From: Methanobacteriota archaeon
GTDB lineage: Archaea > Thermoplasmatota > Poseidoniia > Poseidoniales > Poseidoniaceae
Assembly (NCBI GenBank): GCA_949514915.1
Contig: CATFLP010000015.1
Coordinates: 1 to 38,754, forward strand
Length of the DNA: 38,754 nt
Direction: 5' to 3'
Shown here: positions 13,746-37,118 of the stretch, piece by piece
How the letters are laid out: each line of letters starts with the position of its first letter
Position numbering within the stretch: position 1 is the first letter of the stretch
The notes under the pieces: generated by a model
Seen by the model: only the letters and a program-made list of their open reading frames with translations
The model's database searches: none
What the model was told of the DNA's origin: nothing
Translations under genes and position numbers: made by a program

Positions 13746-16700
13746 TTATTTCCATTCCATCCATTGGCCAGTTCGACCATCTTTGTACCACCAAGCACCA
13801 CTTCCAGATGGGTATTCCAATACTTCGTATCCATCTCTCATTTGTCCTTCCATGTAATTTGGAGGCCTTCCATCTGATGGTGGTGCAGCTGCAGGTACAG
13901 AATCATAAGATACTGGAGCGTTTACAATGTCCTGATAATCATCCCATGCAGCACCATCATCTTGCCACTCATCACCATCTCTGCCTCTTAATTTCATAAC
14001 AGTTAGAAGCCCTAATATTACAACAACTAGAACAGCAATGATGATGATAAATATATTTTGATATTCTCCAAGAGCAGAACTTAATCCAGATCCTGTTCCT
14101 GTATCTTCATCATTATTATTCTCATCATTGTTATCCTCATTTGTATTGTCTAAAGTTTGGTTATCAGATCCTAGAGGGTTGTCTTCAGTTGGTAATGTCT
14201 CGCCATCTTCAGTAGTAACTCCTTCAGATGTAACAACGATTGTAATTGCTGCGGGATTGTAATTCCCTCCACTTACTAATACCTCGATAGTACCTTCTTG
14301 AACAATAAAGTCCGCTTGTCCAGCATCACTAGTTACCATACTAAAAATTGTCCAACTATCTCTTTTTCCAGTTACAGATAAACCTTCTACAGGAATATTG
14401 TCTTCATCTACAACTTGAATAGTTACAGTATCTCCAACTTGTGGGTTTGGAGGACTAAAGCTTAAGAATACGTCCTTAATTTCTGGAGGTTCAGGATTTG
14501 GTGTTGCTTCGACAACCATATTATTTATTGCTGAAATTATTTCAGCATTTTCTCCTTCACCTTTTTGTGCAATTGCAATAATTGTATATTCCCCTACAGG
14601 GGATGAAAGAATTGGCAGTTCTAAATCAGCACTAGATCCTTGTCCCCATGCAATCGAACCCATATTTGAAAGAAGAGAATCAATCAAGTCAAATATTTCT
14701 TCAGGAGTATCTACTTCTGAACCTTCACTGCTATGGTATCCATTTTCAATATAATTACAATCTTCTCCAACTGCTTCAATATACATATTATTTACATGAT
14801 CACCAAGAATTAATTCATAATCTCCACTTAAATCAATTTCATAGTTTGCATACCACTCACTTCCCCAATCTTGATACCAATCTCTAACTGGTGTAATTAA
14901 GAAACCGGAACTATCTTTTAGAACAGTATCTTTAGGATCTGGCATGGATGAACTCCATGGATTATTGTCAACATAAACCCTCATCCTGACATTTGATTTA
15001 CCATATTGAGTATCAGTCTCCCAATCATAGTCTTCTCTGTCTTCACACCATGCATCAGATGAAATGTATACATCCTCGATAGATTTATCATTAGCAACCC
15101 ATCCAATTTCTTCTCTAACTCCTTCACCATACAAAAATTCAGTTACTGCAGACAAATCAATAGTTGCAGGATCAAAACCTTCTTTTGGTGTTGCTACAGC
15201 AAGAATTCTTGATGCTGGCCCATCTTCATCGCTAAGAGCAATATTTGTTACTTGACCTGGCCCTAATTCTCCTGTTAATTTTAACGAAGCAGGATTATTT
15301 AATACAATTCCAATATGTAAAGCATTAGGGAATAAAATTAGGTCACCAGTTCCTACTGACTCACCAGGACAGAAAGATCCATCTTCCCATACATAATCGT
15401 CCCATTCCACCCAATGTTCTTCATTATTATCATATGGATAAAACCATCCATCATCATCGAAATATTCTCCTTCCTGAACATCATAGCATTCATCATTGTT
15501 TCCGTTATTGCCAGTGCTATCAACTGCTATAGCTGCTAACAGATACATTGGTGACTCTAAGTCAACTTCCCAGTTTTTGGCTGTTTCACCACATTCAAAT
15601 TCTAATTCTGTTTCAAATGAACCATCTCCGCCATCCTCATCATTTTGAGGCCCAGTCCATGCATCTTCGTCGACTCCTGGGAATGCCTCTCTAAGAACTA
15701 ATGGAACTAATCCCACAAGAATTCTATGACCATTCTCACAAGGAATATCTGTAGGTGCAATAGAAATTCCAGTGCTTAAATCACCTCTTTCTGAAGAATA
15801 TACAGGGATTCCTCCAAAAGTAGTTTCTTGATTTAAGTCGCCTCCAATTGAAATACTTCCTTCAGTAACTGCTGCAAGATTCATCCCAACTCCTATCATT
15901 TCACTACCATCCGCACGAGTTACTTTCACTTGTGCAATTGAGACATAAGCTCCAGGTAATGTTGGACTCACGGTCATTACCGCTTCTCCATTACTATCAG
16001 AAGTCATGATTTCTTCTTTCATTACTTCAAATGGTCCATCTGTAATGAAACTATCAATAATTACTGGACTTGGTGTCATACTTTCCCAAGAATTTAAACT
16101 ACAATAGTTGTACATACCCCATTCAAAACTTTGATCGTTGTACTCATAATATGTTACATCTTCACCAGTTTCTTCATCATAGTATGTTTTTTCAAACCCA
16201 TCATCATTTTTATATGTAAAATAATGATAATAATGATTATCATCAAAATCTTTGTAATCTACTGTAATTTGATTTTCATACCCTGGATCATTAGTATATT
16301 GATGATACAAGTAATTGTCGTAAGAATCAGATTCCCACGATCCTAGTTCAAGAGTCTCAGTTGTACCATCTCCCCAATTAATATTGATATTTTCAAAATT
16401 AGTAGTATCAAAATATTGATTCCCCTCCCAGGACTGTGTTTTTAAGTACAATTCAATATTATTATTTCCATCTAGCATATATCCCTCAGTATACATACAA
16501 TCAGGTGTTCCAGGCATAGGTATTTGTTCAGTAAATTCAAATTCAATACCTGAATTTGTTTTTCCAGTTGTGGTTACTTCTGCAATACCTATATCTCCAT
16601 TAGCACTAGAAATATCAACATACCATTCACTATTACCATTACCATCTTCTTGGAAAGTATCTTGGAATGTTAATTGATCATATAGATAGACATCTTCTCC

Positions 16701-18917
16701 ATCTCTATGCCCTCTTGGATTTATTTCAACAGTTAAATCACCATTTTCAAGATCATCAGCATTATAATGTCCAGAAATGCTATTTGAACTTGCCCATTCG
16801 TATTCAATTTCTCCTTCAACCTCAAAAGCTTCCACAGCACCTACTGCTGCTTGAGGAGAAACTCTGAGAACAGCTAAATCAACCTCAGCATTTTCAATAG
16901 GTCCACTGTGAGAATATGCTGTTGCCTTAATGTTATAATCATCATTTACATTTGTAGTTTCATCTTGAGTTACTAAAACACCAACGGCTGAAACAATAAA
17001 CATTTCATCATTATTCTCCCATGCCATTGATTCTAACAATGAGGGATTTAATTTTTGAAATTCAATTCTTGCTTCACTAACTTCACAATCATTACATGGT
17101 GGTTCAAAATTACTTAGAGCTTGTGTAAAACTCCATTTGGTATCTTCTATTGTTGATGCTGTTAATCGACCATAATATCTGTACTCATTCCCATCTCTTT
17201 CTAAGAACGTACTTTCAACATCTGCAGGAGTTTTATCATTAGTCATTGCAATTGAGAATTGATCTGGAACATCATCACGATATGGTTCCCATTGTCCCCA
17301 ATCACTTGGATAAAATTCCATAGTTATTCCAATATCCAGTACATTCCTATCATGAATACTAGTGACAACTTCTCTCATTTTACGAGAACTACAATCTTCT
17401 TCACCCTCTTCCTCGTCATATTCACACTCCCCGAAAATTATGGTTTCATCTTCACTATTCCAATCATACCAACTTTCTTCATGCCATGATCTAGATGAGT
17501 CTTCTATCCATTCTCCAAATTCTTCAGCTGATTCTCCAAAACTTTCCCAAACGGGATTAGTTAATGAGTCGAAAACATGTCCCAAAATATGTTCAGGCAT
17601 TGAATTAAATTCATCAAATGCATCATTTACCCATGAAGAACTAGATTCCATTTTCGCGGACCATGCTTGACCTTCTGAAGTATCTAATAATAATTCATAT
17701 TGCCAAGTAATTTCTCCTTCATCATCAGGAATGTCATCACCATTGTAGTCCTCAATGATAGGTTCTGGCATTTCAGCCATACGGACAATTAATTTTTGTA
17801 ATGGAGTCATGCTTTCCCAATCTCCATCAACTAAAGGTTGAGCCCATGCTTCCAAAGAATCAACTATTGCTTCTGGATGTATAGATACAGCCAGTAATGC
17901 AATATTATGCATGATGTTTTGTATAGATTGGAATGGTAATTGATTATTAGCAAGATTTTCAATTGATTCTTGTAAATCATTCCATTCATTACTTCCAAGT
18001 AATGCATTATATGCTGCTTCAAAGTCTCCAGTTCCTTCAAATCTTGTAAAATTCTCAATAGGATCAAATGCTTGCATATGATCTATAACATCACCAAAGT
18101 CTTCTATTACTCTAGGCAATGGAAATTCATCACCATATAGTAAGAAAGCAGCAACCATATCTAATCCCGCGTCTACATCTTCAGAATCTAGAAATTCCAT
18201 TAAAGCTTCTAAGAAATTTGCACCAGCTTCCATATCATATTGATCACGCCCAGCATCTAGCATATTATTCCAAAGTTGTGCACTACCTCCTGGTCCAGTG
18301 CCTTCAGTTGCAGTTTCAACAAAATTAGCCCATCCTCCATTTGATGTCCCTGCTGTTTCTAAACTAGCAAATTCATTTTTTATTTCACCTAATGGATTTG
18401 CAGTATCCCAAGCATTATCAAGAGGTTGTAGAACCTTTGTTTCAAATTTATTAAGTAGCAATTCTGTGATTTGTGTTGCATCATCAACAGCAATCATATT
18501 TCCATGTTCTGCTTTAATTGATGCAGCATAAGTACCGCCTAGGGAAGTAACAGGAACAGTATATACGCCCTTCCAAGTCATTGTATTAACATCATCAATG
18601 TGATAACCAGTATTCTGTAAAACTACAGTATCAACAATTACTCCATTTAATGGAAGTTGACCATTTATTATTTGAATAGGATCCATATCATATCTTAAAA
18701 TATCTGCAGTAACTTGAGTGTTACTTGTATGTCCTCTTGTATGTGCCATTATTTCTACATCAGAACCAACTGATGCAAATTTTGTTGTTACAAAACCATC
18801 AACGCTTAGAGTTTCCCCATTTACGGTTACTGAGTTTGGTGTTGCTATTTGTGCAATTACAGGTGTTAATGACATCCCAATTAGGATAAATATCATCAAA
18901 AACGTATTCCTTTTCAT
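13746..18917 (-). CDS. Giant surface-anchored protein (1723 aa) with PKD/Ig-like regions and C-terminal membrane anchor
   Basis: Secreted cell-surface protein. A signal peptide (MKRNTFLMIFILIGMSLTPVIA) is followed by about 1600 outside residues, very acidic and rich in Trp, Tyr, Asp and Asn. A PKD-like piece with WGDGTTE lies at about residue 847. An Ig/Big-like domain (VGDTVTIQVVDEDNIPVEGLSV) lies near residues 1490-1565. An Asp/Asn-rich spacer leads to a single helix (about 1617-1640) and a cytoplasmic tail of about 80 residues. The tail ends in a Trp-rich motif, GAWWYKDGRTGQWMEWK, of the kind many marine archaeal surface proteins share (from memory). The ATG at 18917 has GGATGA upstream; the GTG four codons earlier overlaps that site. 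It may be a cell-wall, adhesion or polymer-capture protein; no catalytic motif was seen. Confidence 0.85.
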   Translation of the reverse strand: MKRNTFLMIFILIGMSLTPVIAQIATPNSVTVNGETLSVDGFVTTKFASVGSDVEIMAHTRGHTSNTQVTADILRYDMDPIQIINGQLPLNGVIVDTVVLQNTGYHIDDVNTMTWKGVYTVPVTSLGGTYAASIKAEHGNMIAVDDATQITELLLNKFETKVLQPLDNAWDTANPLGEIKNEFASLETAGTSNGGWANFVETATEGTGPGGSAQLWNNMLDAGRDQYDMEAGANFLEALMEFLDSEDVDAGLDMVAAFLLYGDEFPLPRVIEDFGDVIDHMQAFDPIENFTRFEGTGDFEAAYNALLGSNEWNDLQESIENLANNQLPFQSIQNIMHNIALLAVSIHPEAIVDSLEAWAQPLVDGDWESMTPLQKLIVRMAEMPEPIIEDYNGDDIPDDEGEITWQYELLLDTSEGQAWSAKMESSSSWVNDAFDEFNSMPEHILGHVFDSLTNPVWESFGESAEEFGEWIEDSSRSWHEESWYDWNSEDETIIFGECEYDEEEGEEDCSSRKMREVVTSIHDRNVLDIGITMEFYPSDWGQWEPYRDDVPDQFSIAMTNDKTPADVESTFLERDGNEYRYYGRLTASTIEDTKWSFTQALSNFEPPCNDCEVSEARIEFQKLNPSLLESMAWENNDEMFIVSAVGVLVTQDETTNVNDDYNIKATAYSHSGPIENAEVDLAVLRVSPQAAVGAVEAFEVEGEIEYEWASSNSISGHYNADDLENGDLTVEINPRGHRDGEDVYLYDQLTFQDTFQEDGNGNSEWYVDISSANGDIGIAEVTTTGKTNSGIEFEFTEQIPMPGTPDCMYTEGYMLDGNNNIELYLKTQSWEGNQYFDTTNFENININWGDGTTETLELGSWESDSYDNYLYHQYTNDPGYENQITVDYKDFDDNHYYHYFTYKNDDGFEKTYYDEETGEDVTYYEYNDQSFEWGMYNYCSLNSWESMTPSPVIIDSFITDGPFEVMKEEIMTSDSNGEAVMTVSPTLPGAYVSIAQVKVTRADGSEMIGVGMNLAAVTEGSISIGGDLNQETTFGGIPVYSSERGDLSTGISIAPTDIPCENGHRILVGLVPLVLREAFPGVDEDAWTGPQNDEDGGDGSFETELEFECGETAKNWEVDLESPMYLLAAIAVDSTGNNGNNDECYDVQEGEYFDDDGWFYPYDNNEEHWVEWDDYVWEDGSFCPGESVGTGDLILFPNALHIGIVLNNPASLKLTGELGPGQVTNIALSDEDGPASRILAVATPKEGFDPATIDLSAVTEFLYGEGVREEIGWVANDKSIEDVYISSDAWCEDREDYDWETDTQYGKSNVRMRVYVDNNPWSSSMPDPKDTVLKDSSGFLITPVRDWYQDWGSEWYANYEIDLSGDYELILGDHVNNMYIEAVGEDCNYIENGYHSSEGSEVDTPEEIFDLIDSLLSNMGSIAWGQGSSADLELPILSSPVGEYTIIAIAQKGEGENAEIISAINNMVVEATPNPEPPEIKDVFLSFSPPNPQVGDTVTIQVVDEDNIPVEGLSVTGKRDSWTIFSMVTSDAGQADFIVQEGTIEVLVSGGNYNPAAITIVVTSEGVTTEDGETLPTEDNPLGSDNQTLDNTNEDNNDENNNDEDTGTGSGLSSALGEYQNIFIIIIAVLVVVILGLLTVMKLRGRDGDEWQDDGAAWDDYQDIVNAPVSYDSVPAAAPPSDGRPPNYMEGQMRDGYEVLEYPSGSGAWWYKDGRTGQWMEWK

Positions 18918-18983
18918 AAAGTCATCCACTAATCTTTTATTAATAGATGTATTTATTTAATGGATAAATTATTTTTAGTAAAT

Positions 18984-20837: not shown

Positions 20838-22166
20838 TTACTCATCTAACAATAATTGGATGTCTTGTACAAATAAAAGAGGATCCCAATTAAATCCAGT
20901 CCAAGCAATTCTACGATGATGTTCTTTATCTAAAATATATGTAACCGTACTATGGCCTATATTATATGTATTGGAAGCACCACTTTCTTCTTCCCCAAGA
21001 CTTTGAATGTAATTTGTGATATGTGTAGAAACAGTTTCAAGCATTTTAGTATCATTTAAATTAAATTCACACCATTGGTATATTTCTTGAATAATTTCAT
21101 CATAATGTCCATTTTCGTGTATATATTCCTTCTCGCAAAGCTCATGATTTCTAATTTCAATAGGCAAATAATTAACCCTCTCAACCTCATTATTAATTAT
21201 CGCTATGTTTTTAATTTCGGAATTATACAATGTATTAAAATTTTCAGAATTAGGTTCTAATTGGCTATTTTCCCATTCTTTATTTGTTTCATTCCAAATC
21301 ATGAATTGCCAAGTTTCAAGTAAATCTCCATCAATTCCACTTAGAGTTTCAGTACCATTATTACTAGTAACTTCATAAGAGATATTTTCAGAATTTAACG
21401 AATCTAAAATAAGATTCCATCCCGTTGTATTTTCATCTAATTCGTTTGAATTAATAGTTAAAAATATTGATTCATTCCCGTTATCGATTGTTAACGAATA
21501 ATTTTCAGAATTTAGATAATCAGTATCATTAGTGCTTAAATTAGTATGTTGTGATAACATATTTTCAATATGATTTATTGCACTTGGTGTTTTTACATGT
21601 CTCTGCCCGTTTTCGCTAAACATATTCCAATGTTCTAAAACAATCCACAAGTCATCATACATATTGTCTGATGCATTAACTGGATTTTCATCTATTGTAT
21701 GTGCTTGAATAAAACTTTGATTAACTACAATCCCATAAGAATCCCATACAGATTTTGCAACATCATAATCTGGATGAGTTAAATGATCCCAATTATATCC
21801 TAAACCCTCATGCCAATATTCCTTCATTTTTTCAGTAGTATCCGTCAATGGATCAATAGAGATTGAAAGGAAAACCACCTCTTGCCCATAAGAATCCCCT
21901 AATGCTTCTTTTGCAAGATTCATATTATATTCAATCATTGGGCAAAAATCTGGACACGTAGTAAATGTAAAAGCAACCACAATAATTTTATCTTCAAAAT
22001 CAGATAGTGAAACGTTTTCTCCATCTTGATTAATTAATACAAAATCTGGTGCAGGCCCACCAGGCCATTCAGTGCCCTCAAATTGAGGCCAAGCATCATC
22101 AGATGGAGCCCCAAAACAGCCAGATAAAATAGATAATACAATTAAAGCAGAGATGAATTTCTTCAT
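20838..22166 (-). CDS. SCO1/SenC-like copper chaperone lipoprotein with large internal insertion
   Basis: Exported thioredoxin-fold protein of the SCO family, which delivers copper to the CuA site of cytochrome oxidase subunit II. A signal peptide with lipobox LSGC (C17) anchors it. The domain opens with PAPDFVLINQDGENVSLSDF and has the CxxxC copper pair C71 and C75 (TTCPDFCP). The third ligand, the histidine of the GHSTVTYILD motif, is at H405. In normal SCO proteins that histidine is about 85-90 residues after the second cysteine; here it is 330. The extra part of about 240 residues (roughly 155-395) is Asn/Glu-rich and contains a piece similar to a DUF4430-like beta fold (GWNLILDSLN, WQFMIWN). 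At least 442 residues versus about 200 usual. It lies in the same strand and area as the cox operon. Confidence 0.85.
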   Translation of the reverse strand: MKKFISALIVLSILSGCFGAPSDDAWPQFEGTEWPGGPAPDFVLINQDGENVSLSDFEDKIIVVAFTFTTCPDFCPMIEYNMNLAKEALGDSYGQEVVFLSISIDPLTDTTEKMKEYWHEGLGYNWDHLTHPDYDVAKSVWDSYGIVVNQSFIQAHTIDENPVNASDNMYDDLWIVLEHWNMFSENGQRHVKTPSAINHIENMLSQHTNLSTNDTDYLNSENYSLTIDNGNESIFLTINSNELDENTTGWNLILDSLNSENISYEVTSNNGTETLSGIDGDLLETWQFMIWNETNKEWENSQLEPNSENFNTLYNSEIKNIAIINNEVERVNYLPIEIRNHELCEKEYIHENGHYDEIIQEIYQWCEFNLNDTKMLETVSTHITNYIQSLGEEESGASNTYNIGHSTVTYILDKEHHRRIAWTGFNWDPLLFVQDIQLLLDE

Positions 22167-22225: not shown

Positions 22226-23749
22226 TTATTGCATAACGCCATCATAAAAAGTACCCATATATGCCCCCCAACTAATTTTACTTGGTACAGGTACATTCAG
22301 ATTTGTCCGATACATGTTCCATGTGCTTGTGGGAGAATCAAATGAGGAAGTAGAACTTGAAATCATATCAAGTATTCCATCATTATCAATATCAATAATC
22401 AATGGACTAGCAATACTTAACCCTTCACGATTGAAAAGTGTAGAATTAGTATAGTCACAAGAATTCCAAACTAATATTTCATGATATAGTTGAATGTTAT
22501 TTGGATTATTACTTTCCATTAACATATTTGCCCGAATCATAATTACTTCATCTATTCCATCCATGTTTAGATCTACTGCAAGTGGACTTGAAGCCGCAAT
22601 ATGATTAGTTTCTTCCATCCAAGAAACAACTCCCGTTTCTCCATCAATTTGAGCAGTCCAATATGAACTATATTCTGGCCATTCTCCAATAAGGTAATGG
22701 ATAAAAACATCAGGAATTAAGTCATCAGAAAAGAAACCTACTGCAGGACTAACCCATGTTTCAGCATTATTTGCAGTACCATTTAGTGCATAATCTCTTG
22801 CATCAACTTCCCAAATAGAATCATATCCATTGCCGTTTATGGCAATAGTTCTTCCATCAAACATTGAAACTATGATGTCTTGAATTCCATCTTTTGTTAA
22901 ATCAACAATCGTAGGAGGAGAGATTACGCCTTTGTTTACATTTTCAATCGGTGAAACGAGTTGTAATGATTCAGAAATATCATTGTTTAATAAATCATTT
23001 AAAGTTGTCATCCATAAACTTCCAGGCCATGTTTCTCCCCCCGTACCAAAGAGAATTTTTGTCTTTGATTGACCATTCACTAACTCATCATAGATAACTG
23101 GGGAAACATATGTTTCCATTCCATCAGGGGTATCTGCAATAGCTAATATTTCTCCAGTTGAACCAGACATTATCATTAGATATCCTTTTTCCCTTTCTTG
23201 TTCTGGAGTTTTAGTAGGGTCACCACCATTTGTAGTTAACCAATCAGACACACCGTCATTATCTATGTCTTGAATAAATTGTCCAGTGTAAAATTGATAC
23301 CATTCTTCACGTTCTGTTGAATTATGATTAAATGACCAAAGTAGTTCTCCAGTTTGTCCATTAATTGCTTGTAAATTGTGCCCTCTTCCTCCAAGAATTA
23401 CATCAAGCGAACCATCGCCGTTTAAATCTTCAAATTGTGCTGAAGCGAACATTTCTTGTGTAGTTTCAATATTCCAAAGAATTGTTCCATCATTTCCATT
23501 AACTGCAATTATAGATCCTTCTGCAGGCATTTCCATTCCCGTACCAAAGACAATGTCTAGAATCCCATCACCATTAAGATCAGCAGCATGTGGCGATGAA
23601 AATGTACGGGTTTCACCACTAATTTCCCAGATGTTCTCTAAGTTGTTTGGATTTATTGGAGAACAATCATTATTTTCTCCTTCATCACTTTTACCAAAAC
23701 ATCCACTCGTAATTAATATCACGACAAAAACAGAGAAGAGTTTCTTCAC
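22226..23749 (-). CDS. FG-GAP/VCBS beta-propeller lipoprotein
   Basis: Surface lipoprotein with signal peptide and lipobox TSGC (C17). Seven-bladed-propeller type repeats carry calcium-loop motifs: DLNGDGILDIV, DLNGDGSLDVI, DIDNDGVSDW, DLTKDGIQDII, DLNMDGIDEVI and DIDNDGILDM. Several blades also have the PQQ-like pattern AINGNDGTILWN / AINGQTGELLWS. Such propellers bind ligands or partner proteins; no enzyme site is visible. The 507 residues start at a GTG that lies 23 bases after an archaeal TATA box, so a leaderless mRNA is likely. Its promoter matches that of the SCO-like gene. Confidence 0.88.
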   Translation of the reverse strand: MKKLFSVFVVILITSGCFGKSDEGENNDCSPINPNNLENIWEISGETRTFSSPHAADLNGDGILDIVFGTGMEMPAEGSIIAVNGNDGTILWNIETTQEMFASAQFEDLNGDGSLDVILGGRGHNLQAINGQTGELLWSFNHNSTEREEWYQFYTGQFIQDIDNDGVSDWLTTNGGDPTKTPEQEREKGYLMIMSGSTGEILAIADTPDGMETYVSPVIYDELVNGQSKTKILFGTGGETWPGSLWMTTLNDLLNNDISESLQLVSPIENVNKGVISPPTIVDLTKDGIQDIIVSMFDGRTIAINGNGYDSIWEVDARDYALNGTANNAETWVSPAVGFFSDDLIPDVFIHYLIGEWPEYSSYWTAQIDGETGVVSWMEETNHIAASSPLAVDLNMDGIDEVIMIRANMLMESNNPNNIQLYHEILVWNSCDYTNSTLFNREGLSIASPLIIDIDNDGILDMISSSTSSFDSPTSTWNMYRTNLNVPVPSKISWGAYMGTFYDGVMQ

Positions 23750-23800: not shown

Positions 23801-24163
23801 TTATGGTGAATAACTACCGATGAATTCAGGAGAACACCACGCAGGTAAACCAGCAACTCCTCCAGGGGTTGTAAATGCAATTCCAAGGAATAATATTACA
23901 ACAAAAATAAATGGAAATACAAATGTATATGTCAATTCCCTTTCATCATCCCATAAATGCATGAAGAAAGCAGCAATTCCAAAGAATTTTACAATACCTA
24001 CACTTACTAAAGCAAAAACAGTTGCACCATAAGTTAGACTAAGATATACAGCACCAACTTCAATTGCAGTAAAGACCATTAAAAATACAAAATTCCAAAA
24101 ATATACATCTTGACCTGTTTTTTCATATAGTGCTTTTTGCCAGCCAGTTTGATGTTCGCCCAT
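23801..24163 (-). CDS. coxD: Cytochrome c oxidase subunit IV (CoxD-like)
   Basis: A small accessory subunit of the heme-copper oxidase with three membrane helices (FWNFVFLMVFTAIEVGAVYLS, VFALVSVGIVKFFGIAAFFMHL and FVFPFIFVVILFLGIAF) and the family pattern KFFGIAAFFMHLWDDER, similar to the prokaryotic subunit IV KxxxVxxxFMHL motif. 120 residues. ATG at 24163 has GGTGA placed before it, and the stop TAA of coxC is part of that site, so the two genes are translationally coupled. Last gene of the coxBACD operon. Confidence 0.85.
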   Translation of the reverse strand: MGEHQTGWQKALYEKTGQDVYFWNFVFLMVFTAIEVGAVYLSLTYGATVFALVSVGIVKFFGIAAFFMHLWDDERELTYTFVFPFIFVVILFLGIAFTTPGGVAGLPAWCSPEFIGSYSP

Positions 24164-24173
24164 TTTTTTCACC

Positions 24174-25175
24174 TTAATACAGATAGAATGCCGGGAATAT
24201 TATTACCCATGCTAAATCAACAAAGTGCCAATATAGCCCGTAATATTCAATACTTTGCGCGTTATTGTGATCCCAGCCACCAATATGCGCTTTGTAAATA
24301 AAATATGTTAGGAATACGAGTCCAACAAATACATGTACACCGTGAGCACCAGTAGTTACATAGAAAAAGCTACCAGCAAGTGTTGAAATTGTAAAATCAT
24401 AATCATGAATTAAGTGATTCCATTCCCATAACTTTAGAATTAAGAAAAGAGTACCTAGCATTAAAGTCATAGCTAAATAGTTTCTAACTTTCTTGTCACG
24501 AACTTTAGGATCTAAATCAACATTCTTTGCTGCTTTAAGTGCCAATACTACAGTAAAAGAGGACAGAATTAGAGCAAAGGTATTAATCGCACCAGGCAAT
24601 AATGTCATGAAATCTGCAGTGATATATTCAGCAGCTACATGTTGATAAACAGGAGTACTAGATTCTGTATGCCAAAATGTCTGATTAACTAACCCACCTG
24701 TTGCTTCTTCACATTGTGTTATCATCGGTGTGTGTTTTTCTGACAAACATTCTTTGTAAATTGATTTAGCCGTTGCTCCTGGTGCTGCTAGACTAGAATC
24801 TATTGCTTCCTGAGCCTTATCTAGAAGGGTCCAATGAGTGTTCCAATTTGTTCTCATTCTCATATATGCACCAAAGAATGAACCAAAAATCATAACTTCT
24901 GACATTAAGAAAAGCCAAATTCCAGCTTTACGAATATTCATTCCTCCAAATGGAGTACCGTAAGATTTCAATTCGCCCATTTTCTCGGAACCATCAAATG
25001 GAAGATCTCCTTTCCACCATGTAAATAATCCCCAAATGAGAACAACAAGACCAATTGCAGTAATCCCCATACTTGCTTCAGAAAATCCGTATAGGAATAT
25101 CATGGTTCCTAAAGAAGCGATTATTGGCGCCCAAGATCCATGGTGTCCATGGTCGTCATGATCACCATAACTCAT
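24174..25175 (-). CDS. coxC: Cytochrome c oxidase subunit III
   Basis: Integral membrane subunit of the aa3-type oxidase. Family features: KAGIWLFLMSEVMIFGSFFGAYM, LPGAINTFALILSSFTVVLAL, a GSFFYVTTGAHGVHVFVGL segment (the usual FxxTGFHGxHV motif) and the final YGLYWHFVDLAWVIIFPAFYLY. The N-terminus has a His/Asp/Gly-rich run (GDHDDHGHHG). The loop between helices 3 and 4 (about residues 110-180) is longer than usual and has two cysteines (KECLSEK and TQCEEA). Its ATG overlaps the coxA stop (ATGA). Confidence 0.95.
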   Translation of the reverse strand: MSYGDHDDHGHHGSWAPIIASLGTMIFLYGFSEASMGITAIGLVVLIWGLFTWWKGDLPFDGSEKMGELKSYGTPFGGMNIRKAGIWLFLMSEVMIFGSFFGAYMRMRTNWNTHWTLLDKAQEAIDSSLAAPGATAKSIYKECLSEKHTPMITQCEEATGGLVNQTFWHTESSTPVYQHVAAEYITADFMTLLPGAINTFALILSSFTVVLALKAAKNVDLDPKVRDKKVRNYLAMTLMLGTLFLILKLWEWNHLIHDYDFTISTLAGSFFYVTTGAHGVHVFVGLVFLTYFIYKAHIGGWDHNNAQSIEYYGLYWHFVDLAWVIIFPAFYLY

Positions 25176-27484
25176 TTTGGCTCAACCCCCTTCCACATTC
25201 TTGAGAACATCCCTCCACCAGTAGATTCCACATGGTGCAGGTTATCATCTTCTTGAGTAGGAATTTCATGGAAACTTGGAGTAGGTGGTGGGGATGTTGT
25301 AGTCCATTCTAGGCTCCATCCGCCCCATGGATCTTTTCCACATTTTTCTCCATATTTGTAACTTCTAATAATATTCCATGTTAATATTAATTGAGCAAAG
25401 CCCATAATGAGTGCTGACATTGTAATAAATGAATTTAATTCAGACCAACTATCTACTGAATATGTGTGATAACGTCTAGGCATTCCTTCTATTCCTAATT
25501 GATGCATAGGCCAAAATGTACCATTCATTGCAATAAATGTGATTATAAAGTGCAACAGACCTAATTTTTCATCTAATTTACGTCCAACTGCTTTAGGATA
25601 CCAATAATATATTGCAGAAAACATACCGAATAAGGTTCCACCAACTAAAACGTAATGGAAGTGAGCAACAACAAAATATGTATCGTGGAAATGAGTATCA
25701 AGTCCTGCTACTGGGAAGAACATTCCAGAAATACCTCCCATTGTGAAAGTTACTAAAAATCCTAAAGCCCACAAAGTATGCGTTTTAAACACTAATGATC
25801 CGCCCCATAGAGTGGCCAACCAATTGAATATTTTCACACCTGTAGGTATTGCAACTAACATAGTTGTTAACATCATTATTAATCTGAAAGTTGGGTCCAT
25901 TCCACTTGTTAACATATGGTGGCCCCATACAATGAATCCTAGTACTCCAATGCCTGCTAACGCATATACCATTGATTTATAGCCAAATATTGATCTTTTA
26001 GCGCTTGTTGAAAGAACTTCAGATACTACTCCAAATGCGGGCAAAATAACTACGTATACCTCAGGATGTCCAAAGTACCAAAAGAGATGTGCCCATAATA
26101 TAGGGTCTCCTCCAACTGCAGCATCATAAAAATGAGTACCAATAGTCCTATCAAAATATAGGTAAACTGTACCAATGATTAATGCAGGCAATGAGAGATA
26201 TAACATTGCATTAGCAACAAAAATTGACCATGTAAATAGAGGCATTTTCATCCAAGTTACTCCTGGTGCTCGCATAGTCATTACAGTTGCAATAAAGTTT
26301 ACACCAGATAGTGTAGATGAAATTCCTAACATAATTATTCCTGCAACGAATAGAGTTGTACCCGCGCTAGCACCTTTTTCTCCCAATGAATTAGAAAACG
26401 GAGCATACATTGTCCAAGTAATATCTGCGCCTTCTCCAGACATTACTCCTCCATAAAGCAAAACGCTAGAAAATGCAAGCATCCAGAATCCCATAGCATT
26501 AACTCTTGGAAATGCTAAATCCTTTGCACCAATTTGTAGAGGAATAATCCAATTTGCAAATGCAGCAATCATTGGCATTGCTGCTAAGAAAATCATCGTG
26601 GTACCATGAAGTGTAAAAAATGAATTATATTGATCTTGAGTTAAGAAGTCATTATCCGCTACTGCAAGCTGTAAACGGAATAACATTGCAAAAATTCCAC
26701 CAATCAATAGGAAAAGGAAACTAAATACAAAATAAAGAGTTCCAACTTCTTTATGGTCTGTAGTAGTCATCCATTTCTTTAACCATTCTGTCAATCCGTT
26801 TAGATTAAAACCATCAGGGTTATTTCTATAAAAGACATAAACTAACATTAATGAAAATAATGCAATACCAAAGGTTATTGCAGCAATAGCGACTTCATAT
26901 GGCTCTGCTTGTTCAATTAATATTGCTCCACCACCTAATGCAGCTGCACCAGGTATAGAAGCTTGAAAAGTGCTCCATTTGTCGCCAGAATTACCATCAG
27001 CAGGAATATTTCCAACAGCATTTCCGTTTACAGCATTTCCATGCACTGTAAAGTCTACAATTTGCCCTTCATTATCAGGAGCAGTCCAAACAACAACCCA
27101 ACTTCTCATATCATTTCCTGATTCTGTGTGAGTTATGCCCCCATCCATCACCTGAACTAAATCAGTATAATTTTCTCCAGCACTAAAAGTTCCATCAGTT
27201 GCAAATAATCTAAAACCACCCATATTGCTTGATAGTTCAGCACCTGCAATATTTGGATTTGAAATCGTGATATTCAATTCATAAGATGTTCCACCTACAA
27301 ATGAGTCAGGCATTCCATCAACAATTACAGTTGTAGTTCCTGCTCCTCCAGAGTGACACGCACATCCAGTGGTACCATTTGCTCTATTAACTCCTGTTGG
27401 ATAAGAGGTCATTTGAGGTGTAGCAGCTAAAGCAATAAAAATCACAAACAACAATGAAATCACTCGGATTTTATTTTTATTCAT
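25172..27484 (-). CDS. coxA: Cytochrome c oxidase subunit I with fused N-terminal extracellular CxCH domain
   Basis: Catalytic heme a/a3-CuB subunit that reduces oxygen to water and pumps protons. The oxidase core starts at about residue 239 (MTTTDHKEVG) and has TLHGTTMIF (heme a ligand), FGHPEVY (CuB H473, proton-path E475, cross-linked Y477), GHH (H522-H523) and AHFHYV (H608 and H610). This is the A-type pattern. Before it are about 235 extra residues: a signal-like helix, a GCACHSGG motif (C41-x-C43-H44), a beta-rich domain that resembles the choice-of-anchor V/reeler-like group, and an added helix (about 205-228). Normal subunit I is about 520-600 residues; this is 770. ATG 27484 has GGAAGTGA upstream. 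Confidence 0.95.
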   Translation of the reverse strand: MNKNKIRVISLLFVIFIALAATPQMTSYPTGVNRANGTTGCACHSGGAGTTTVIVDGMPDSFVGGTSYELNITISNPNIAGAELSSNMGGFRLFATDGTFSAGENYTDLVQVMDGGITHTESGNDMRSWVVVWTAPDNEGQIVDFTVHGNAVNGNAVGNIPADGNSGDKWSTFQASIPGAAALGGGAILIEQAEPYEVAIAAITFGIALFSLMLVYVFYRNNPDGFNLNGLTEWLKKWMTTTDHKEVGTLYFVFSFLFLLIGGIFAMLFRLQLAVADNDFLTQDQYNSFFTLHGTTMIFLAAMPMIAAFANWIIPLQIGAKDLAFPRVNAMGFWMLAFSSVLLYGGVMSGEGADITWTMYAPFSNSLGEKGASAGTTLFVAGIIMLGISSTLSGVNFIATVMTMRAPGVTWMKMPLFTWSIFVANAMLYLSLPALIIGTVYLYFDRTIGTHFYDAAVGGDPILWAHLFWYFGHPEVYVVILPAFGVVSEVLSTSAKRSIFGYKSMVYALAGIGVLGFIVWGHHMLTSGMDPTFRLIMMLTTMLVAIPTGVKIFNWLATLWGGSLVFKTHTLWALGFLVTFTMGGISGMFFPVAGLDTHFHDTYFVVAHFHYVLVGGTLFGMFSAIYYWYPKAVGRKLDEKLGLLHFIITFIAMNGTFWPMHQLGIEGMPRRYHTYSVDSWSELNSFITMSALIMGFAQLILTWNIIRSYKYGEKCGKDPWGGWSLEWTTTSPPPTPSFHEIPTQEDDNLHHVESTGGGMFSRMWKGVEPK

Positions 27485-27497
27485 CAATTCACTTCCT

Positions 27498-28217
27498 TTA
27501 ACCACATGCACCTACAACATGCACTTTTGCTAGCATTTTCGAATGTTGTTGGCCACAATATTCTGCACAAAACAAATCAAATGTTCCAGTTTCTTTCGGT
27601 GTGAATGACATGGACGTTTCTATTCCAGGAACAGTATCTTCTTTAATTCCCCATTCTGGAATAAACGGGGCATGCAAGACTGGTAATTCTCCTCCATCAT
27701 TTAATGTGACTAATTTTGCTTTAATTACACGATTACATGGCAAATATAAATTTCCATCGCCAGTATATGCTCCATCTACTATTTCAGTACCAGTCGGAGT
27801 AGTAAATGTGGATGTTGTAAAGTTACCAGTTTCATTTAGTTCAGTTATTAATATCTCATCATGGTAGTAAAAATTCCATCCCCATTGATATGCTTCGATA
27901 GTAATGTCCCATGTATCTTCATCTTCAGAATAAGGATCGACCCACACAGTAATCATTGATTGCCACGCAATAAAAGTAAGATAAAGTACTAGAATAGTAG
28001 GGACAATAAACCATGTTAATTCCAAAGTCAAATTGTCTCTTTCTTTTGGAAAAACTCCTGGTGTTAATTTTTCAGGAGTTTCTTCTTTTGGAGATATTTG
28101 TCTGAATCTAATAATCAAGTAAAATAAAAGAGCGAATGTTAAAATTCCTACCACTAATGACCAAAAATTCCAAGTTTTCATCAAACTTCTAAAAATTGTG
28201 TAATCGGCTGGACCCAT
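27498..28217 (-). CDS. coxB: Cytochrome c oxidase subunit II
   Basis: CuA-carrying subunit that takes electrons from cytochrome c or a copper protein. Two N-terminal membrane helices (about residues 18-38 and 75-95), then a periplasmic-side cupredoxin domain with EAYQWGWNF and the CuA site: the VLHAPF histidine and C217-x3-C221-x3-H225-x2-M228 (CAEYCGQQHSKM). 239 residues from the ATG at 28217, preceded by AGGGAG. A short linker insertion with ETGNFTTSTFTTPTGTE lies in the first beta strands. First gene of coxBACD; the next ATG lies 13 bp after its stop. Confidence 0.96.
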   Translation of the reverse strand: MGPADYTIFRSLMKTWNFWSLVVGILTFALLFYLIIRFRQISPKEETPEKLTPGVFPKERDNLTLELTWFIVPTILVLYLTFIAWQSMITVWVDPYSEDEDTWDITIEAYQWGWNFYYHDEILITELNETGNFTTSTFTTPTGTEIVDGAYTGDGNLYLPCNRVIKAKLVTLNDGGELPVLHAPFIPEWGIKEDTVPGIETSMSFTPKETGTFDLFCAEYCGQQHSKMLAKVHVVGACG

Positions 28218-28255
28218 ACCAATGAACTCCCTAACGTTTATCGGGCACTCATCCC

Positions 28256-28269
28256 AACTATTAATAGTT
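28256..28269. promoter_or_regulatory. Perfect 14-bp palindrome over the presumed coxB TATA box
   Basis: AACTATTAATAGTT is its own reverse complement. Its centre is 45 bp upstream of the coxB ATG; TATTAATA in it fits a TATA element, which would put transcription start about 20 bases before the ATG and leave AGGGAG in the leader. A regulator dimer binding here would block the promoter. Confidence 0.45.
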
Positions 28270-28358
28270 CTCAAGCAGCAATGAACATAGAAGCCATCAT
28301 GTAGGGAACACTACCCTTAATTAATGATGTAATTTTAGAAATTTTAGAGGGTTGTCTA

Positions 28359-35999: not shown

Positions 36000-37007
36000 T
36001 TATTCTTCAATTCTTTCTAAATTACTTTGAGCACGACTATAGACTTCTCTAAGAGTTTGATCATTTATTTCTAGGTATACTCTTGTTGTTTGAATATTAG
36101 CGTGACCCAATAGACGTTGTATTGAAACAATGTCAGCACCCCTTTCTAGTAACCCAGTAGCAAAATTATGCCTTAATACGTGTGGAGAAAGTCGTTTTTT
36201 TGAGATATTTGCATCTTCAGCAATTCGATCCATCAATTTTTGAATTCCACGTGGAGTGATACGTTTACCTTTTGAATTAACCAATAAAGCATCTTCATCA
36301 ACAAGATGTAACTTTCCTCTTAATACAATCCAACAATCTAATACTTCAGCGGTTTGATCTGTATAAAGTACCATTCTGTCTTTGTTACCTTTCCCACCTA
36401 CAACCCTTGCACTTTTATCTGAAAAGTCAACATCATGAATATTTAATCCACATAATTCACTAACTCTTATTCCAGTTTCTAACAAAAAGGTGACAATTAA
36501 ATGTGCAAGAGGATTTTCACTATTGAATGCTGCAGTTCTAACGGATTTCAACTCATCATTTGAAAGTATTTTTGGTATTTGTTTACCTTTTCGAGGCCTA
36601 ATAATATGTTCAGGTAAATGATGACCAACCCATTCAATTAGATGACTTATAGCCGCAAGGCGAGCATTAACAGTAGATGGTTTCAACTCATTAATTGATT
36701 GTAACCAAATGTCTAATCTTCCATTATTCGGATTAACATAGGAATTTAATTCTTTTACAGTCAAACTTTCAATCTCGCCAATATCATTTTCATTGATTGA
36801 TATTTTTGTAGATAGGAACTTTTTTGCTGCACAAAGATATGATTTAATGGTGTTGTTACTTTTACCTTCTGTTTTTAGTTGTTGGATCCAACAAGGATAC
36901 CATGAAACATGAGATAAACGAATTATCCTATCTGGTAAGTTTACATCGTTTAATTTTTTTTGAAGGTCTAGTAATTGCTCTAATTCTTGATTACGTTCTA
37001 AAGACAT
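36000..37007 (-). CDS. xerA: Tyrosine recombinase, XerA/XerD type
   Basis: 335-residue tyrosine recombinase. N-terminal SAM-like core-binding domain (about residues 30-140; KSNNTIKSYLCAAKKFL), then the catalytic domain with R181 (ETGIRVSEL), the lysine in GGKGNKDRMV, HVLRHNFAT, LGHANIQTTRVYLEI and the nucleophile Y311. The full R-K-H-R-H-Y set is present, so it should be active. Archaeal XerA resolves chromosome dimers at a dif site; nothing here shows a mobile element. ATG at 37007 has GGGGAT upstream; a TTG frame 51 bases longer is not needed. Confidence 0.92.
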   Translation of the reverse strand: MSLERNQELEQLLDLQKKLNDVNLPDRIIRLSHVSWYPCWIQQLKTEGKSNNTIKSYLCAAKKFLSTKISINENDIGEIESLTVKELNSYVNPNNGRLDIWLQSINELKPSTVNARLAAISHLIEWVGHHLPEHIIRPRKGKQIPKILSNDELKSVRTAAFNSENPLAHLIVTFLLETGIRVSELCGLNIHDVDFSDKSARVVGGKGNKDRMVLYTDQTAEVLDCWIVLRGKLHLVDEDALLVNSKGKRITPRGIQKLMDRIAEDANISKKRLSPHVLRHNFATGLLERGADIVSIQRLLGHANIQTTRVYLEINDQTLREVYSRAQSNLERIEE

Positions 37008-37118
37008 AGTATCCCCTCTTTTTGTCGCAACGCGACTGCATCCCTGCCTAAATGGCAACAGCGCTTATAACTCAAGGGTTTTGAATGCTTCGTGAGAAAT
37101 GAACAAAAAATGATTAAA

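Follow-up and report, generated by a model that had tools for sequence, protein, structure and literature searches.

The window, by which we mean the whole 38,754-nucleotide stretch of Poseidoniaceae DNA that was analyzed, carries on its minus strand a cytochrome oxidase operon in the order coxB, coxA, coxC and coxD, followed by genes for an FG-GAP protein and a Sco1-like protein. The nearest named relatives of the source genome are Euryarchaeota UBA596 and Candidatus Poseidoniales MAGs. The features of this operon are listed below, with CoxA residues numbered as in the 770 amino acid protein.

27498..28274, minus strand: CoxB with CuA ligands (CAEYCGQQHSKM) (PF00116; motif from the sequence)
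25172..27484, minus strand: CoxA (CtaD) with an N-terminal choice-of-anchor V/Reeler domain, 770 amino acids
27407..27484, minus strand: signal-peptide-like segment of CoxA, residues 1-26, a hydrophobic stretch behind a K/R-rich start, read from the sequence
26969..27418, minus strand: choice-of-anchor V (Reeler-fold) domain, residues 23-172 (NF041895; Foldseek)
27353..27367, minus strand: GCACH motif (G40, C41, A42, C43, H44), predicted heme c attachment site
27128..27130, minus strand: second histidine, H119 (T-H-T), predicted distal axial ligand (55/55)
26822..26902, minus strand: extra membrane-spanning helix, residues 195-221 (numbered 169-195 in the AF2 model of the fragment)
25409..26746, minus strand: COX1 catalytic core (PF00115, 494.8 bits)
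24174..25175, minus strand: CoxC, subunit III (PF00510)
23801..24172, minus strand: CoxD, prokaryotic subunit IV (PF03626)
20838..22166, minus strand: SCO1/SenC CuA assembly factor with a C-terminal extension (PF02630, E=6e-22)

The coxA reading frame (25172-27511, minus strand) runs for 779 codons without a stop. The ATG at 27484 lies 13 bases past the CoxB stop codon and is preceded by AGGAAGTG, and on the strength of both it is probably the start of coxA. Downstream, the PF00115 alignment spans profile positions 2-432 of 436, so the full COX1 core is present, and TIGR02891 scores 669 against a cut-off of 671. These two profiles place the beginning of the core at about residues 238-247, and it is a complete A-type cytochrome oxidase subunit I. 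The neighboring CoxB has the CuA motif CxExCx3Hx2M, thus a CuA-bearing subunit II is encoded in the same operon (PF00116), and its profile matches are to COX2 only, with no fused heme c domain. The CuA center of CoxB is inferred to be the likely electron acceptor of the CoxA N-terminal domain. Elsewhere in the window, an FG-GAP/PQQ-like beta-propeller, lipoprotein-like gene (22226-23749) lies between coxD and the Sco1 gene, an open reading frame of 1727 amino acids (13746-18929) has no Pfam match at 1e-5, and a Phage-integrase-family (tyrosine recombinase) gene occupies 36000-37058.

The residues that precede the core form a domain with a recognizable family and fold. CoxA scores 77.6 bits with the NCBIfam choice-of-anchor V model NF041895, for which the cut-off is 42 (E=1e-21), and the N-terminal domain was modelled by AlphaFold with a mean pLDDT of 86. 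The best PDB matches of this model in Foldseek are all to the Reeler domain of F-spondin (3coo, 2zot; E=7.6e-7, probability 1.00), though with modest TM-scores (0.56 on the target). In a sequence search of the PDB, the F-spondin Reeler was again the top match, a weak one, and no homologous heme protein was recovered beside it. CoxA does not reach the gathering threshold of Pfam Reeler (PF02014); a paralog with the same CxCH motif (L115) clears it, with 21.5 against 21. Judged by charge, the added transmembrane helix is oriented N-out/C-in and leads the chain from the outside to the inside, where the N-terminus of a canonical CoxA starts, and the topology is consistent. An earlier note, made from the sequence alone, had described a signal-like segment, a beta-rich domain and an added helix ahead of a core from about residue 239, had taken 27484 as the start, had placed C41, C43 and H44 (27353-27364), and had likened the domain by eye to choice-of-anchor V/reeler proteins; all of these claims held, the start as the likely one and the family assignment by the NF041895 score.

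The fusion of this domain to CoxA is real, and both the fusion and its motif are conserved far above chance. With the first 230 residues of CoxA as a query, each of the 58 relatives gave a match, in most cases within an open frame of 760-800 amino acids. All 55 aligned fusions have CxCH and none has CxxCH, and G40, C41, C43, H44 (GCxCH), H119 and W129 are invariant at the 55 fused loci, as are Y68 and P136 among the other positions listed. The same architecture occurs in Marine Group II (Poseidoniales), in three genomes (G060, G126, G138) of a family of the same class, f3, which we take to be probably Marine Group III, and in a more distant Thermoplasmatota genome of another family (G081). In the CoxA tree, the main oxidase of Marine Group II and f3 falls into a single clade whose members all carry the fusion; L049 and L058, which are marked as unfused, are contig ends. 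Three genomes (L240, L268, L276) also have the domain fused to another, deeply divergent oxidase, and in G060 the CoxA of this second oxidase is unfused and the very next gene encodes a CxCH Reeler protein of 204 amino acids. A domain that is fused in some genomes and adjoining in another is a classical sign of a functional pair.

Two other explanations of the fusion were rejected. An assembly artefact is excluded by the identical fusion across many independent assemblies from several families. An internal start, or two separate genes, is contradicted by the only plausible internal start of coxA, the methionine at about 239, which is leucine in 49 of 55 sequences, and by a frame that is open in nearly all relatives. 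The earlier note had claimed the fusion, had proposed alignment as a check on it and on the CxCH spacing, and had named two observations that would refute it, a separate gene for the domain in relatives, with a stop or frameshift between, and an in-frame start near residue 230 with a strong ribosome signal. The fusion held, with conservation across relatives, as did the spacing (55/55), and the internal start is unsupported. A separate gene occurs once, beside the divergent second oxidase of G060; there it is an intact neighbor, which speaks for a functional link and not for a fault of assembly. The note's further claim, that relatives carry CxxCH at the same place, also held.

Beyond the oxidase, the domain belongs to a wider family in which the spacing of the motif varies. 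A plasmid search for bacterial choice-of-anchor V members found none; the bacterial members came from genomes behind earlier loci. These members, from acidobacterial and gemmatimonad genomes, have CTECH, CAECH or CATCH in the aligned motif column and retain the second histidine, and the equivalent of H119 is also present in the archaeal CxCH paralogs. Two archaeal members of the domain have CxxCH (CGGCH). The interchange of CxCH and CxxCH within one family is as expected for heme attachment. A whole-genome motif scan of a complete, single-contig relative (G014) recovered six exported CxCH Reeler proteins, and some members of the domain family sit on long PKD-like surface proteins. Among the individual members, a Poseidoniales surface-like protein (L245, L247; frames of about 1766 amino acids) has the same domain with the canonical CGGCH. 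In G014, an exported protein of 377 amino acids (284263-285396) has a signal peptide and a third motif spacing, CxxxCH (CGGACH), and directly follows a CxCH protein of 916 amino acids. Another CxCH Reeler membrane protein is encoded at a conserved position between the transhydrogenase gene pntB and tatC (L115:1417-2421; G014 1301299-1302282).

A complex III-like operon begins with a CxCH paralog, anchored at its C-terminus, in both the source genome (G000) and G014, located as follows.

Source genome, contig C104, L129:3071-8857: complex III-like operon
G014, 958779-964651: complex III-like operon

The gene order is CxCH Reeler, a DUF7318-like small membrane protein, Rieske, a cytochrome b6-like protein, a 915 amino acid protein and ferredoxin, the 915 amino acid protein being the C-half of cytochrome b joined to CCG and 4Fe-4S domains. 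Marine Group II is reported to have cytochrome b and Rieske proteins and no canonical bc1 (Tully 2019, PMC6336850). From its position in the operon, the CxCH paralog is inferred to occupy the place held elsewhere by cytochrome c1 or f. Cupredoxins are encoded in 46 of 54 genomes and adjoin CcmF in several; none was found in the draft source genome.

The same archaea possess heme c assembly genes. PF01578 (CcmC/CcmF) is present in all 56 Poseidoniales sampled and CcmE in 42 of 54 Poseidoniales genomes, that of G014 being of the CxxxY type, and the WWD motif of CcmF reads WGGYWAWDP. These Ccm proteins match with strong E-values, yet they are divergent, CcmF falling far under the NCBIfam cut-offs, and CcmH was not among the genes searched. 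An ordinary cytochrome c encoded at another place in the genome was considered as the client of this machinery and was not found: no Cytochrome_CBB3 (PF13442) match above the cut-off occurs in 390 Thermoplasmatota genomes, and the CxxCH scan of G014 revealed no exported CxxCH cytochrome, the inspected CxxCH proteins with a signal or transmembrane segment being thioredoxin-type. Cytochrome c of PF00034 and PF01322 is reported absent in Thermoplasmatota (Sheridan 2022, PMC9287336). The absence of cytochrome c thus rests on one Pfam family here, one paper and one complete genome. Outside the class, each of the 14 genomes that match choice-of-anchor V strongly also has PF01578, in comparison to 28 of 241 others (Fisher p=1e-12, uncorrected for kinship, about 11 families). 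Given that Ccm genes are universal in the group and that cytochrome c was not found, the CxCH Reeler proteins are one obvious candidate set of clients.

What is shown is how the domain is built, that it is conserved, and that it is linked in the genome to complexes III and IV and to the Ccm genes. With moderate confidence, we favor the interpretation that the CoxA N-terminal domain is a tethered heme c module of Reeler fold that feeds CuA and is matured by the divergent Ccm proteins, the attachment of heme being inferred. Once the domain is exported, the archaeal Ccm system (CcmA/C/E/F) would attach heme to C41 and C43 through one or two thioethers, with H44 as the proximal and H119 as the distal ligand, although this geometry is unmeasured and the model contains no heme. 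Heme on the outer face would then pass electrons to the CuA of CoxB, and from there to heme a and heme a3-CuB. The CxCH paralog encoded with Rieske and cytochrome b would correspond to cytochrome c1 or f, and a cupredoxin, often encoded beside CcmF, may be the mobile carrier between this paralog and the CoxA domain. The full predicted path would run from quinol through Rieske/cytochrome b, the CxCH protein, cupredoxin and the CxCH domain of CoxA to CuA, heme a and heme a3-CuB. The view of the domain as an electron conduit is supported because it adjoins both Rieske/cytochrome b and an unfused CoxA, because heme c assembly genes are conserved where no cytochrome c was found, and because CuA is retained in CoxB.

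Several known systems resemble this arrangement in part. Choice-of-anchor V proteins (NF041895) share the sequence family, a signal peptide followed by a Cys-His motif, the beta domain, a C-terminal anchor and the invariant second histidine; the bacterial members examined have CxxCH and no oxidase fusion, whereas CoxA has CxCH and is fused. In caa3-type oxidases, cytochrome c is fused to subunit II. These enzymes are alike in that heme c is covalently tethered to an A-type oxidase, as is predicted here for a donor to CuA, and differ in that the present domain is on the N-terminus of subunit I, is a Reeler beta domain rather than a helical cytochrome c, and has CxCH; the defining feature of caa3, a heme c domain fused to subunit II, is not met by this oxidase. 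Cytochrome f is a beta-fold heme c protein with its heme near the mature N-terminus and an N-terminal amine as a ligand. The complex III paralog resembles cytochromes f and c1 in having its heme site soon after the signal peptide, a C-terminal transmembrane anchor and a Rieske/cytochrome b operon, and cytochrome f also has a beta-rich lumenal domain. However, no homology to these cytochromes was found, the motif is CxCH, and bis-His ligation is predicted in place of the N-terminal amine of cytochrome f. The F-spondin Reeler is alike in fold (Foldseek) and weakly in sequence, but it belongs to the extracellular matrix, and no heme site is known in it. Regarding the criteria for a c-type cytochrome, the canonical CxxCH is not met (CxCH in 55/55), and heme c maturation genes are present in the host.

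Several points stand against heme. There is no experiment, the CxCH spacing may permit just one thioether, animal Reeler domains are without known heme, the structural similarity scores are modest, and the linkage to complexes III and IV is by itself also compatible with a copper site. In the literature searched, there is no precedent for covalent heme at CxCH, and nothing on CXCH heme, choice-of-anchor V or a CoxA fusion of this kind describes such an arrangement.

The main rival, which remains possible, is that copper is bound by C41, C43, H44 and H119, whether in a relay or assembly site loading CuA or CuB or in a mononuclear electron-transfer center on a beta-sandwich. In its favor are the invariant Cys2His2-like set on a beta sandwich, the Sco1 gene in the same cluster and the prevalence of cupredoxins across the group. 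Against it, the bacterial relatives and two archaeal members show CxxCH, the heme c signature, the universal Ccm genes without cytochrome c would be left unexplained, and the complex III paralog requires no copper delivery. The earlier note had left copper and heme as alternatives, and the choice remains undecided without experiment, with heme favored. A second alternative, a structural, adhesive or thiol-redox (C41-C43 disulfide) module that has no cofactor and docks partners like an animal Reeler, is suggested by the fold and by the family members on long PKD-like surface proteins; it is unlikely, as the histidines vary no more than the cysteines, with H119 distant in sequence, the co-occurrence with Ccm is strong, and the domain is found with both respiratory complexes. 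Least likely is a gas or redox sensor whose heme regulates the oxidase, offered in the earlier note as an alternative to electron entry and compatible with a predicted bis-His heme and the lack of a demonstrated carrier-docking face, since the same domain also exists as a separate anchored protein encoded with Rieske/cytochrome b, where a carrier is missing, and the retained CuA needs a donor; of the two, electron entry is the better supported, and that interpretation is supported overall.

Marine Group II, which is uncultured, is among the most abundant archaea of the surface ocean. If the tethered heme c reading is true, the domain would be a candidate for the electron carrier so far missing from complexes III and IV of these archaea, the otherwise orphan Ccm genes would gain a client, and the heme c motif would be extended to CxCH; it could also explain how these archaea respire when no ordinary cytochrome c is found. 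A bolder reading, which in our estimation could prove wrong as readily as right, is that the Poseidoniia, along with some of the other Thermoplasmatota, rely for respiration on a class of cytochrome c that has been overlooked. Its members would be Reeler-fold proteins with heme at CxCH, matured by an adapted Ccm system, that fill the c1/f position in complex III and also give oxidase subunit I a donor of its own. Each step is testable by expressing a single domain of 170 residues.

The source genome also encodes, on contig C89 (L002:1183-3267), a membrane protein of 694 amino acids with a weak COX1 match (7e-9), the C-terminal parts of which are EF-hand-like and SAP-like. This protein is possibly an unusual relative of the heme-copper oxidases.
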